DNA from: Arthrobacter silviterrae
Lineage (GTDB): Bacteria; Actinomycetota; Actinomycetes; Actinomycetales; Micrococcaceae
Assembly (NCBI RefSeq): GCF_011045165.1
Contig: NZ_JAAKZI010000010.1
Location: 1-64,000, forward strand
Direction: 5' to 3'
DNA length: 64,000 nucleotides
This document shows positions 56,079 to 59,727 of this stretch, one piece after another. The first letter of the stretch is position 1, and each line of letters starts with the position of its first letter. A program made the position numbers and the translations under genes. The notes beneath the pieces were generated by a model. It ran no database searches. It had not been told where the DNA came from and saw only the letters and a list, made by a program, of their open reading frames with translations.

Positions 56079-56806
56079 GGCTTGATGACGTAGCCGGCGC
56101 CGCGGACGGTGTGGATCATGGGTTCGCGGTCGGCATCGATCTTCTTGCGCAGGTAGGAGATGTACAGCTCCACAATGTTGCTTTGGCCGCCAAAGTCGTA
56201 GTCCCACACGCGGTCCAGGATGCGGGTCTTGCTCAGCACGTGGCGCGGATTTTCCATCAGGTACTGCAGCAGCTCGAACTCGGTGCTGGTCAGGGTGATT
56301 TCGGCGCCGGCGCGGGACACTTCGCGGGTGTCGCGGTTCAGGGACAGGTCCCCCACCGTCAACTCAGCGGCATTGGGTGCGGTGACCCCGGCGCGCTGGA
56401 CAATGCGGTGCAGGCGCAGCAGCACCTCCTCCATACTGAAGGGCTTCGTCACATAATCGTCGCCGCCGGCATGCAGCCCCGTGAGCCTGTCCGCAACGGC
56501 GTCCTTGGCGGTCAGGAACAGGGCGGGGATGTCCGGGTAGATGGTGCGGATGCGGCCCAGCAGTTCCACGCCGTCCATGCCGGGCATCATGACGTCCAGG
56601 ACCAGTACGTCCGGGTGGAAGGCCCTGGCTGTTTTGAGAGCTTCCTGGCCGTCGTGCTCCACGGCTACGTCCCAGCCGGCCAGTTCAATCCCCATGCGCA
56701 TCAGGTCGGCCAGGGAGGGCTCGTCATCCACCACCAGGGCGCGGATGGGTTCGCCGCCCTGCCGGGTGAGCTTTTCGGGACCGTTGGCGCGGTGAGGTAG
56801 GGACAT
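56069..56806 (-). CDS. OmpR-family response regulator
   Basis: 245 residues. Receiver domain ALVVDDEPSLADLMRMGI with the phosphoacceptor Asp in VLVLDVMMPGMDG (residue 71) and Lys in DYVTKPFSMEEV. The C-terminal winged helix contains LTSTEFELLQYLMENPRHVLSK and VELYISYLRKKID. It is cognate to the overlapping kinase. The ATG at 56806 lies 6 bases after CATAAT with a GGAGG between, so it may be leaderless or use a very short leader. It diverges from the exported coiled-coil gene, which may be a target. Confidence 0.92.
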   Translation of the reverse strand: MSLPHRANGPEKLTRQGGEPIRALVVDDEPSLADLMRMGIELAGWDVAVEHDGQEALKTARAFHPDVLVLDVMMPGMDGVELLGRIRTIYPDIPALFLTAKDAVADRLTGLHAGGDDYVTKPFSMEEVLLRLHRIVQRAGVTAPNAAELTVGDLSLNRDTREVSRAGAEITLTSTEFELLQYLMENPRHVLSKTRILDRVWDYDFGGQSNIVELYISYLRKKIDADREPMIHTVRGAGYVIKPCV

Positions 56807-56818
56807 GCCTCCATTATG
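56807..56818 (-). promoter_or_regulatory. Promoter -10 of the response regulator/kinase operon
   Basis: CATAAT on the minus strand (56813-56818) followed by 6 bases and ATG 56806, a leaderless-type layout. Confidence 0.4.
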
Positions 56819-56993
56819 GCTGTGCCCGGCCTGCATACGGCTGGAAGATTGCTGGGAGTTGTCTGTGCGTGTTTGCGAGGTTGGGCGCGAAATCCGCGGT
56901 GGGGGCGGGTTTTCACCGAAATCCCAGTAGTCCCTCAAAGCGGGTGCAAATAAGCGAGTGTCCACCACTCGTGTTTCCCGCGCGGAAGCCCCA

Positions 56994-57006
56994 TAGCTTG
57001 GCTGCC
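56994..57006 (+). promoter_or_regulatory. Leaderless promoter -10 of the short ORF before the coiled-coil gene
   Basis: TAGCTT (56994-56999), 7 bases, ATG 57007. If used, transcription begins at the short ORF and the coiled-coil gene is translated by coupling. The remainder of the 56819-56993 region shows only a small inverted repeat (CGAGTG-N5-CACTCG near 56955). Confidence 0.5.
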
Positions 57007-57078
57007 ATGCACTGGCCGCCTGGCCGAGTGCTGCGACTCGCACCCGCACATATCGATGAGACCTGGGGGTTTCCATGA
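57007..57078 (+). CDS. Short upstream ORF (23 codons) coupled to the coiled-coil gene
   Basis: MHWPPGRVLRLAPAHIDETW plus GFP, starting 7 bases after a TAGCTT -10 box and ending in a TGA that overlaps the ATG of the coiled-coil gene (ATGA). Overlap and leaderless position together make it a good candidate leader peptide or coupling device. It could also be chance; the bias of so short a frame cannot decide. Confidence 0.45.
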   Translation: MHWPPGRVLRLAPAHIDETWGFP

Positions 57079-59456
57079 GCAATGCCAGAACTATACCCAA
57101 TTCCGCCCGGACCGCTGCCGGTTTGTCCGCCCGGCTGTCCGCCCGGCGGCTGGCCAGCGCCGTCGTGATGACAGGCGTTGTCACCAGCATGCTGGTGCTG
57201 GCACCACCTGCGACGGCGGCCCCCGGGAACTCCGTGAGCTCTGCAAGCACTGCCGGCATTTGCAACGGCGTCGTCAACCAGTTGGCGCACCGTGGCACTG
57301 TCCAGGAAAACCTGCTGAAGGCCGCCGCCAGGAAGAACGCTGCCATCATCACCCAATTGCAGGCTGAACGTGCCCAGCTCCAGTCCAGCGGAGAGGCCCT
57401 GAAGGTACAGATTGCCGCCGCCAACACGGCCATCGCCACTCTTGAAGCCCAGGGGGCACAGCTGGAGGCCGACCTTGCCACGGCCACCGCCCAGCTGGCC
57501 AGCCTGCAGGCCCAGCAGGAAGCCACGGCGCAGGCCATTGCCGACGCCCAGACAGCCCTCTTTGACCTGGAATCACAGAGGGATTCAGTGCAGGGCCAGC
57601 TCACGCCGCTCCAGGCGCAGCTGGCGGACGCCCAGTCAGCCGCCGCCCAGCTGAACGGGGAGGCCCAAACCGCTGCCAGCAAGGTGGCCGCCAAGCAGGC
57701 CGAAATCTCCGTTGCCGACGGACAGCTGACGGCCCTGAAGGCGTCAGCCACCCAGGCTTCCGAGGCCCTCGACGCCAAGAAGACGCAAATCAGTAAGGCA
57801 ACGGCGGAACTGGCAACCCTGACCCAGGCCGCGCAGGACGCCGACGCCGCCGTGGCTGCCGCCACCCGCGCTGTCGCAGATGCCGAAGGCGAGCTCACCG
57901 TCCTTGAGAACAGCGGCACCGCGGCCCAGGATGCCCTCGACGCCCAGAACGCCAAGGTGGCCAAGGCAAATACCACCCTCGCCACGCTCACGTCTGCCGC
58001 AACAACGGCAGCCGACGCGGTCACGGCCAAGAATGCCGAAATCACCCAGGCGCAGGGGCAGCTGGCGGCGCTGCAGTCGGCGGCTACAAGTGCTGCAGAT
58101 GCGCTCACCGCCAAGAACACCGAGATCACCCAGGCTCAAAACGACCTTGCAGGACTCCAGACGACGGCGGCAGCCGCGGTGGCCGCGGTGGCAGATAACA
58201 CTGCGGGGATTAATGCGGCCAACGCTGACATCGCCTCGCTGCAAGCGCAGATTGGAGCTGACACCATGGCGATCGCTGCCAAGCAGACGCTGCTGGCCCA
58301 AGCGCAGGGTGAGCTGACGTCGCTGCAGGCGAGCGCCAAGTTGCTCAGTGACCAAATCGTTGTCCTCAACGGGAAGATCAATGACGGCAGCGGCGGCAAC
58401 AAGACCGGGCTCATCAAGCAGAGAGACGGGCTGCAGGCCCAGCTTGATCCGATCAATACCCAGATCACACAGAAGTCCGGCGAGATCTCAGCACTCCAAG
58501 ACGACCTGGCCGGTTTGCAGTCAGCCGTCAACACGCTGAGTGGCGAACTGGTGGCCAAGCAGGGCGCCAGCAGCGCGCTCCAGCAGCAGGCGGCGCCGCT
58601 GCAGGCGGCCTTGGACACAGCCAATGGGAATGTCGCCACCAAGCAGGCAGACATCGCCGCGTTGCAGGGCCAGCTGCCTGGCCTGTCGGACGCGGTGTCC
58701 ACTGCAAACGCTGCCGTGACAGACAAGGCCCGCGAGCTCAGCACACTGCAGGGCCAGCTGCCGGCGCTTCAGGATGCGGCCAGCTCCGCCCAGGCCGCCG
58801 TCGTCGCCCAGCAGCAGGTGGTTTCCAACCTCGAGGCTGCGCTGCCCGCCCTGGCGGATGGCGTTGCGCAGGCCCAGGACGCCATCGATGCGCAAAAGGT
58901 GGTGCTCCAGGGGCTGCAGTCCACCCTGGCTGCCGCCCGGGAGGCTGCCACGGCAGCGCAGGCGGCGGTGGACGCCAAGAACACGGAGCTTGCCGCCCTC
59001 AACGCTGAACTGCCCGGCCTGCAGGCAACGCTGGACGCCACGAATGCTGCCGTCGGAGTCAAGCAGGCCGAGCTTACCGTGCTGAACGGCGAGTTGGACC
59101 AGCTCACGGCCACCCTTGCAGGCCTCAACGCGCAGATCTCCGCCAAGGAAGCGGACATCCTGGCGCTTCAGGGGCGGGTGGCGCCGTTGTTGGAGCAGCT
59201 CAACCAGCTCAACGGGGAGATCACGGCGGCGGACGCCGCGCTGAGCGCACTCCAGGCCCAGCTGACGTCGCTGGACCAGCAGCTCACGGCAGCGCAGTCC
59301 GTGCTCCGCGACCTCGAAGCCCAGAAGAAGGCCAACAAGGATGCGGTCAAGGCCCAAAAGGACCTTGTGAAGGGCCTGCAGGACCAGCTGGGGTCGGTGC
59401 AGCAGCAGATCGGCGCGATTGACGGACAAATCGCCTTGGGCGGTTGCGCGGCCTGA
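57075..59456 (+). CDS. Exported alanine-rich coiled-coil protein of 28-residue repeats
   Basis: 793 residues. A signal peptide (SAVVMTGVVTSMLVLAPPATAA, cut near residue 49) is followed by about 700 residues of helical, Ala/Gln/Leu-rich sequence in an exact 28-residue period, for example QDALDAQNAKVAKANTTLAT..., ADAVTAKNAEITQAQGQLAA..., DKARELSTLQGQLPALQDAA... Several repeats carry a proline at the same place (GQLPGL, GQLPAL, AALPAL, AELPGL), and a Gly-rich break (NDGSGGNKTG) sits mid-way. Only two cysteines occur, C63 just after the signal region and C791 three residues from the end. There is no anchor or LPXTG motif. No family recognised. GGGGGTTT, a weak ribosome site, precedes the ATG, which overlaps the short ORF stop. 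Confidence 0.82.
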   Translation: MSNARTIPNSARTAAGLSARLSARRLASAVVMTGVVTSMLVLAPPATAAPGNSVSSASTAGICNGVVNQLAHRGTVQENLLKAAARKNAAIITQLQAERAQLQSSGEALKVQIAAANTAIATLEAQGAQLEADLATATAQLASLQAQQEATAQAIADAQTALFDLESQRDSVQGQLTPLQAQLADAQSAAAQLNGEAQTAASKVAAKQAEISVADGQLTALKASATQASEALDAKKTQISKATAELATLTQAAQDADAAVAAATRAVADAEGELTVLENSGTAAQDALDAQNAKVAKANTTLATLTSAATTAADAVTAKNAEITQAQGQLAALQSAATSAADALTAKNTEITQAQNDLAGLQTTAAAAVAAVADNTAGINAANADIASLQAQIGADTMAIAAKQTLLAQAQGELTSLQASAKLLSDQIVVLNGKINDGSGGNKTGLIKQRDGLQAQLDPINTQITQKSGEISALQDDLAGLQSAVNTLSGELVAKQGASSALQQQAAPLQAALDTANGNVATKQADIAALQGQLPGLSDAVSTANAAVTDKARELSTLQGQLPALQDAASSAQAAVVAQQQVVSNLEAALPALADGVAQAQDAIDAQKVVLQGLQSTLAAAREAATAAQAAVDAKNTELAALNAELPGLQATLDATNAAVGVKQAELTVLNGELDQLTATLAGLNAQISAKEADILALQGRVAPLLEQLNQLNGEITAADAALSALQAQLTSLDQQLTAAQSVLRDLEAQKKANKDAVKAQKDLVKGLQDQLGSVQQQIGAIDGQIALGGCAA

Positions 59457-59507
59457 TCCCCGTGCCCGCCCGGTCCGCTGAGTATCCCGTTTCGAGGCCG
59501 CAGGGCA

Positions 59508-59554
59508 TGGAAAAGGCCTCAAGTCCCCTGTATTCACAAGGGATTTGAGGCCTT
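59508..59554 (-). terminator. Rho-independent terminator of tRNA-Ser
   Basis: AAGGCCTCAAGTCCC (59513-59527) pairs with 59540-59554. On the minus strand the stem is followed by TTTT (59509-59512), the usual intrinsic form, just after the tRNA gene. It also faces the end of the coiled-coil gene. Confidence 0.75.
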
Positions 59555-59562
59555 CTCAGTGG

Positions 59563-59649
59563 CGGTGACGGTGGGATTTGAACCCACGTTAGGCTCTCAC
59601 CTAAACAACATTTCGAGTGTTGCACCTTCGGCCGCTCGGACACGTCACC
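59563..59649 (-). tRNA. tRNA-Ser (anticodon CGA)
   Basis: On the minus strand a 7-bp acceptor stem (GGTGACG with CGTCACC), an anticodon arm CAACA-CTCGAAA-TGTTG giving anticodon CGA, a long variable arm (GGTGAGAGCCTAAC region), a GGTTCAAATCC T-arm and discriminator G. Length and long variable arm are typical of serine tRNA. It reads UCG codons. CCA is not fully encoded. Confidence 0.95.
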
Positions 59650-59727
59650 AACGCGTCAACCTTACCGGGTCGGGGGCCCACTTCAAAAATGGGCCCACAA
59701 CCGCGGCAAATGGGGGAGGATGGCCCC

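Follow-up and report, generated by a model that had tools for sequence, protein, structure and literature searches.

The gene described here occupies positions 57075-59456 on the forward strand of a 64,000-nucleotide stretch of the Arthrobacter silviterrae genome (positions 1 to 64,000 of contig NZ_JAAKZI010000010.1, hereafter the window) and encodes a protein of 793 amino acids, rich in Ala, Leu and Gln, in full agreement with the first-pass annotation of this DNA, which had called an open reading frame (ORF) of exactly this extent and read it as a secreted rod. Its first 48 residues (57075..57218, forward strand) constitute a putative signal peptide, which contains Arg and a hydrophobic stretch (both these features and the type of the signal were judged by eye) and ends at the conserved motif A46-x-A48; each of the two alanines of this AxA cleavage site is conserved in 97% of 40 aligned homologues. 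The rod protein is predicted from its sequence to be exported through this signal peptide. It does not contain an LPXTG wall anchor in its sequence and terminates with ...IALGGCAA, only two residues past C791. The gene is adjoined by a divergently transcribed two-component system, which the first-pass annotation had also pointed out; the system does stand opposite the rod gene, but a functional link between the two is unsupported, as the histidine kinase gene recurs beside the rod gene in only one of 54 other loci, that of the nearest relative (neighbouring ORFs were chosen by a rule based on length and GC3, which missed the response regulator of the window, so that it was left uncounted).

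The rod gene is present in a single copy in its own genome. Homologues are distributed patchily: they were found in 29 of 295 genomes drawn from the family, in four of 58 relatives, in ten of 396 genomes of the order and in one of 394 genomes of the class (these overlapping draws each include the genome of the window). A scan of contigs with six search peptides, one of them containing the N-terminal cysteine, revealed 39 related loci, mostly in Arthrobacter, Pseudarthrobacter and Sinomonas, with further hosts among Intrasporangium, Knoellia, Ornithinimicrobium, Nocardioides, Microbacterium and Naasia, as well as some contigs of metagenome-assembled genomes (MAGs). Two of the MAG contigs (L012 and L017) carry the unexpected labels Blastococcus and Chloroflexi and are possibly mis-binned. 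Locus L005, which represents the same gene as L004, and the truncated L032 were left out of the counts. No match to the 70 N-terminal residues was found in collections of plasmids and phages.

The only cysteines of the window protein are C63 (57261-57263) and C791 (59445..59447, forward strand), exactly as had been noticed before, and the proposed check of their conservation shows that both are kept throughout the family: all 57 distinct complete homologues contain, in their mature form, exactly two cysteines. None of the 67 distinct N-terminal matches lacks the first one, a count based on profile matches with E-values up to 1e-8, in which a cysteine was not demanded; L031 and L068 had been placed 50 residues too early by the pattern, and their cysteine is located at the expected site. 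C63 belongs to a block of residues 61-96 (GICNGVVNQLAHRG...; 57255..57362, forward strand), referred to here as the base block, whose HRG motif reads HRL in L084; the entire region of residues 1-124 has no match in Pfam at an E-value of 0.001. C791 is a part of the terminal GGC motif, and G789, G790 and C791 are conserved in 40 of 40 aligned rows. L087 retains the cysteine and has lost the two glycines, its C-terminus being AVAVTCGV.

Between the two cysteines the rod protein is periodic. Identity between residues 28 positions apart amounts to 0.304, compared to 0.122 in shuffled sequences (300 shuffles, z 16.2), followed by the lags of 56 and 84, which confirms the earlier observation of a 28-residue period extending over approximately 25 units. 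The period is kept in the homologues, as its proposed examination revealed: 28 is the top lag between 5 and 59 in 38 of 42 homologues, with 21 or 56 being the top lag in the other four, and the lag-28 z-score never falls below 6.0 among all 42. The repeats, however, are not exact, as had been claimed, since identity between units is only about 30% and TRF found no tandem repeat within the gene at the DNA level. Neither is the period unbroken over its full length: it holds inside each arm of the protein (lag-28 identity of 0.317 and 0.345, respectively), but on passing a Gly-rich midpoint the frame of the repeats in one arm is shifted against that in the other by 8 (modulo 28). This break of phase indicates that there are two separate repeat arrays rather than one.

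In the N-terminal arm, the core positions of the 28-residue unit are 1, 4, 8, 11, 15, 18, 22 and 25. The C-terminal arm has six conserved prolines (508, 535, 563, 591, 647 and 704) and the N-terminal arm has one (P178). They adjoin the core positions instead of being placed inside the core, so that a coiled coil is still allowed, whereas the earlier argument was that the prolines would bar a plain one. P178 (57606..57608, forward strand; Pro in 31 of 39) and P704 (59184..59186, forward strand; 39 of 39) are located in opposite arms, at approximately the same level: the sum of their positions is 882, while the position of the tip predicts 879. In a pattern search restricted to narrow windows, both were found in 39 of 57 proteins, and in these 39 they lie 115 residues past the first cysteine and 87 (38 proteins) or 86 (one protein) residues ahead of the second one. 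Lysine is the commonest residue at unit position 11 in the N-terminal arm (30%) and at position 19 in the C-terminal arm (49%), which is an unusual charge for the core of a coiled coil.

The lengths of the two arms were compared with the use of a conserved anchor, the SS.LQ motif at residue 499. In an unrestricted search of 38 rows, the distance from the anchor to the second cysteine was 292 residues in 33, 291 in one and 236 in three rows (representing two proteins), and one row was truncated; among 57 proteins, in which the anchor was sought only close to its expected place, the distance was 292 in 46, 291 in one and 236 in six, and the anchor was not found in four. The distance from the first cysteine to the anchor, in the same 57 proteins, is 434-441 residues in the long class and 380-381 in the short class. 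Because both distances are shorter in the short class, 56 residues, i.e. two units, must be missing from each arm. The spread of 434-441 arises at the midpoint: outside residues 425-450, the stretch from the first to the second cysteine is free of insertions and deletions in 48 of 51 long members, in which the only site of variable length is at residues 434-446, while the other three exhibit small insertions or deletions elsewhere (L010 at 114-117, L031 at 786 and L087 at 789). The heptad phase difference between the arms assumes all seven possible values in 56 proteins, and this freedom counts against a rod that continues through the midpoint. A comparison of side-chain volumes between the cores of the N-terminal and C-terminal arms gave no clear register.

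The short members included in the tree (L004, L035, L081, L083 and L085; a sixth one, L084, was left out) form one clade with support of 100/100, so that the change in arm length was one evolutionary event and not many, which lessens its weight in support of a hairpin. The clade spans the family of the window, another family of the same order, and Naasia, and this grouping of short forms across families suggests horizontal transfer, as judged from the tree. Two genomes carry two copies each, namely a long and a short form in G155 (L081 and L082) and two long forms in G311 (L090 and L091). As for the location of the missing units, profile scoring of the N-terminal arm gave 536.2 for a split of 7+49 residues and 535.1 for 28+28, with several splits within a few points, while in the C-terminal arm 28+28 was the best by 5.6; because the scores leave the placement ambiguous, our claim is limited to 56 residues per arm. 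The 28+28 split is based on a MAFFT alignment, of which nine of 40 rows were viewed, and on the kinks in the AlphaFold models described below.

The structure of the window protein was predicted with AlphaFold2 from 39 sequences, with middling confidence (pLDDT 75.9, pTM 0.41; numbering of the mature protein, to which 54 has to be added). The model comprises helices 24-229, 233-383, 388-478, 480-534 and 546-733, with a turn at 384-387, and remains helical until a few residues before the C-terminus. In terms of the full-length protein, a predicted N-terminal arm of approximately residues 78-437 (57306..58385, forward strand), composed of the 28-residue units, is followed by the Gly-rich turn of residues 438-441 (58386..58397, forward strand), here called the tip, and by a C-terminal arm of approximately residues 442-787 (58398..59435, forward strand), which includes a conserved tip-proximal stretch at 461-502. 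Each predicted arm is broken by a kink, at residues 283-287 in the N-terminal arm (57921..57935, forward strand; pLDDT below 50) and at residues 589-599 in the C-terminal arm (58839..58871, forward strand), the latter containing P591 (Pro in 34 of 39); the kinks are centred at 231 and 540 of the mature protein, each exactly 154.5 residues off the turn. A model of the short homologue L035, calculated from 34 sequences and likewise of middling confidence (pLDDT 74.4, pTM 0.45), exhibits kinks centred at 204.5 and 454.5, a tip at 325-330 and an additional helix break at 303-307. Compared to the window protein, it is shorter by 26.5 residues from the base to the first kink, by 31.5 from there to the tip, by 27.5 from the tip to the second kink and by 26.5 from that kink back to the base, although the alignment used as input already carried the gap placement that these kinks mirror. 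The kinks may be artefacts of prediction, because the stalks of UmbC1 and UmbC2 were bent back erroneously in AlphaFold models, according to the paper describing them (PMC11062931). Prediction of the monomer, proposed in the first-pass annotation, thus yielded a turn at the Gly-rich midpoint and matched kinks in both the long and the short homologue, and the idea of stacks of kinked short helices, put forward there, is disfavoured.

The information content of the alignment peaks at the open end of the predicted hairpin, referred to here as the base (2.4-3.7 bits for residues 55-96 and 3.4 for 783-793); it is raised just past the tip (2.5-2.6 bits for residues 461-502) and at residues 685-754 (2.1-2.8 bits), and is lowest in the N-terminal arm (1.1-2.0 bits for residues 97-432). 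Such a profile suggests that the base serves for docking and that another contact may lie close to the tip. In the model, the helix of the N-terminal arm starts approximately 14 residues past the level reached by the end of the C-terminal helix, and C63 is located about 15 residues ahead of this helix, among the first 22 residues of the model, all with pLDDT below 50. If this N-terminal segment folded back, it would place C63 beside C791. From this geometry and from the invariance of the cysteines we infer an intramolecular C63-C791 disulfide, and go no further than that because the base region is not resolved in the model. The genome contains a gene of the VKOR family; VKOR aids formation of disulfides in exported proteins of actinobacteria.

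The architecture of the arms is supported by the computed evidence outlined above. With a probability of about 0.6, we propose that the rod protein is exported by its signal peptide as a single chain, which would fold into an antiparallel coiled-coil hairpin. Its two arms, with approximately 345-360 residues or about twelve 28-residue units each, would extend from the base, the chain reversing at the Gly-rich midpoint around residue 440 and returning to the base, where the two ends would meet and the intramolecular C63-C791 disulfide would clip the hairpin shut, and the product would perhaps serve as a spacer docking via its base. The rise of a coiled coil is 0.15 nm per residue, and a straight rod of this kind would measure approximately 50 nm. 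Of the two options considered in the first-pass annotation for the disulfide, a folded rod closed within one copy is therefore the one that gains support, namely from the symmetric arms, the free phase at the midpoint, the invariant cysteines and the two AlphaFold models.

The other option, in which the same two cysteines, sole and invariant at the termini, would link separate copies head to tail into long secreted fibres, is disfavoured and appears to us improbable: a hairpin places both cysteines at one end, which favours closure of a single chain, and both the equal lengths of the arms and the AlphaFold model argue that the chain turns back. Dimers joined base to base are possible. Much less credible still is a parallel coiled-coil dimer or trimer, which would form a continuous rod of approximately 100 nm, like M proteins or the tails of myosin. 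The heptad pattern is indeed strong, and models or chains of myosin, PspA and tropomyosin match the rod protein; however, the heptad phase is not kept at the midpoint, the two arms change length equally, and the AlphaFold monomer turns at the midpoint.

As regards function, an extracellular or wall-embedded spacer, which would dock with a partner via the base and perhaps make a second contact near the tip, is our tentative guess, put forward because neither a head nor a tip domain nor a wall anchor is seen and the base is the most conserved region. Its main rival is a stalk carrying a partner that is encoded by a separate gene, i.e. a stripped-down analogue of the stalk of umbrella toxins or of PrgA, in which the head would be a separate protein bound at the base or at the tip. 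The structural matches to PrgA (PDB 6z9l; Foldseek rank 2, E 3.2e-7) and Umb1 (8w20; a weak match, rank 35, E 0.044), and the same peaks of conservation at the base and near the tip, speak for such a stalk, but the TM-score of PrgA to the rod model is low (0.13), and no constant neighbour gene was found within about 6 kb, the commonest cluster being present in only 17 of 55 loci, so we regard it as rather unlikely. It is very hard to believe that the rod protein is an activator of wall hydrolases of the EnvC/CwlO type devoid of its catalytic or LytM domain: EnvC chains do match profile positions 627-710 (E 6.5e-6 and 1.2e-5), but the EnvC model of NCBIfam (NF008644) scores 16.5 bits against a cut-off of 270, and the predicted helix stops only a few residues short of the C-terminus.

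The first-pass annotation knew of no described family with this plan, and within the scope of the tests this stands. Of 33 NCBIfam matches, the 25 listed all stayed below their cut-offs. Seven of the 25 listed among 44 Pfam families matched at E-values up to 1 did pass theirs, namely ATG16 (61.3 bits against a cut-off of 33.7), Fez1 (54.3/34.4), ADIP (43.7/34.3), AAA_13 (41.5/36), CENP-F_leu_zip (37.8/34.5), DUF7491 (32.4/30) and BRE1 (31.5/27.9); however, we interpret all of these hits as generic cross-matching of coiled coils, because mutually unrelated models all match one and the same protein. A search of PDB sequences likewise returned mixed coiled coils (58 sequences). The SMC family model (TIGR02168) scored 118.5 bits against a cut-off of 567.35, and instead of an ATPase head and a hinge the rod protein has a near-continuous helix, a turn of four residues and a signal peptide in front. 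The PrgA model (TIGR04320) scored 35.4 bits against 70; LPXTG is missing, as is a globular tip domain, the two helices being separated by those four residues only. There is no place for a C-terminal toxin domain as in UmbC, since the protein ends two residues past C791, and ALF repeats are missing among the 25 of 44 Pfam matches listed, the model consisting of long helices. Among the matches listed from the full-text literature, a scope that excludes most subscription papers, the family was not found. Thus, as far as tested, the rod protein falls outside all named protein families examined. The features shared by the proposed family are the signal peptide, the GICNGVVNQ..HRG base block, two matched arms of 28-residue units, the GGC motif and the two cysteines, with the exceptions of L084 (HRL) and L087 (AVAVTCGV instead of GGC).

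In its predicted shape, the rod protein resembles the stalk of PrgA or an arm of SMC proteins, devoid of head, tip domain and anchor. MukB, PrgA, Smc5/6 and condensin are within the first six Foldseek matches in the PDB. In total, 13 matches have E-values up to 0.001, with all TM-scores at 0.27 or less; upon structural re-alignment, designed helical bundles came first (Z 15.1). PrgA, the enterococcal surface exclusion protein, is likewise secreted by a Gram-positive bacterium and has a very long helical stalk, to which the predicted rod may correspond: the model, of middling confidence, and the fold matches agree in this respect, and PrgA re-aligned over 491 residues (VIA-align Z 13.4, below three designed helical bundles, rmsd 39.5), which is within the range possible for unrelated long helices. 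PrgA has an antiparallel stalk, a CAP domain and a wall anchor, while the rod protein possesses neither an LPXTG anchor nor a tip domain. In an SMC-type arm, one chain folds back on itself to form an antiparallel coiled coil. The arms of SMC, MukB, condensin and cohesin, the latter with its elbow, share with the rod a possible elbow and discrete lengths, which in natural SMC proteins differ in steps of approximately 100 residues (PMC5344682); in contrast to them, the rod protein would be exported, lacks head and hinge, is probably closed at the base by a disulfide, and its step is 56 residues per arm. The stalk of UmbC from the umbrella toxins of Streptomyces (PDB 8w20) is likewise secreted, actinobacterial and long, and it is formed by two converging coiled-coil domains (PMC11062931); UmbC, however, carries eight ALF repeats and C-terminal toxin domains, whereas the rod protein is a rod only. 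The giant surface proteins of Apilactobacillus kunkeei are also extracellular rods of helical repeats (PMC12863079), but they comprise 3,000-8,000 residues and bear β-solenoid and DUF5776 end domains; the words "cysteine" and "disulfide" occur 0 times in the main text of that paper.

Coiled-coil hairpins with antiparallel strands are familiar as stalks or arms bearing other parts. It is conceivable, if somewhat doubtful, that the proteins described here constitute a new family of secreted rods, in which the disulfide-clipped hairpin alone would act as an extracellular linker with two ends and a fixed length, the latter being changed by gain or loss of a single 28-residue unit per arm segment, in all four segments at once, which would preserve the register of base, kink and tip. 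What is seen here is a conserved, though patchily distributed, family that apparently comprises nothing but the rod; its open end bears one invariant cysteine pair, and its arms change their lengths together. Such a family would offer a simple natural system for the study of strand register in long hairpin coiled coils and might provide a scaffold for rigid spacers on the nanometre scale; it also represents an exported, so far unexplained component of common soil actinobacteria.

Upstream of the rod gene, a perfect palindrome CGAGTG-N5-CACTCG (56955..56971) ends 103 bases ahead of the start codon and, judged from its sequence, is a candidate activator site or operator. It is present in a single perfect copy in the whole genome, and the search for a regulon was negative, as with up to one mismatch six sites per strand were found, compared to 11 for the control; similarly, no combined upstream motif was found in 106 loci. 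In 22 of 27 loci, the upstream region contains half-sites AGTAST, compared to a mean of 1.9 in shuffled sequences, the pattern having been picked after viewing those very sequences and the 27 loci having been chosen by hand out of 50. Many homologues with other neighbours have half-sites AGTAST and GAGTR...YACT in their upstream regions, in several cases followed by GTGT and then a hexamer resembling a -10 element, as seen by eye. Downstream of the rod ORF, on the opposite strand, there is a gene for tRNA-Ser (cga) at 59560-59649, the only significant match to Rfam in the region 56700-59700. A tRNA of any kind is present in four of 49 loci scanned, and a tRNA-Ser (cga) is near the rod gene also in the locus of the nearest relative (L100), the remaining 48 scanned loci being devoid of it.
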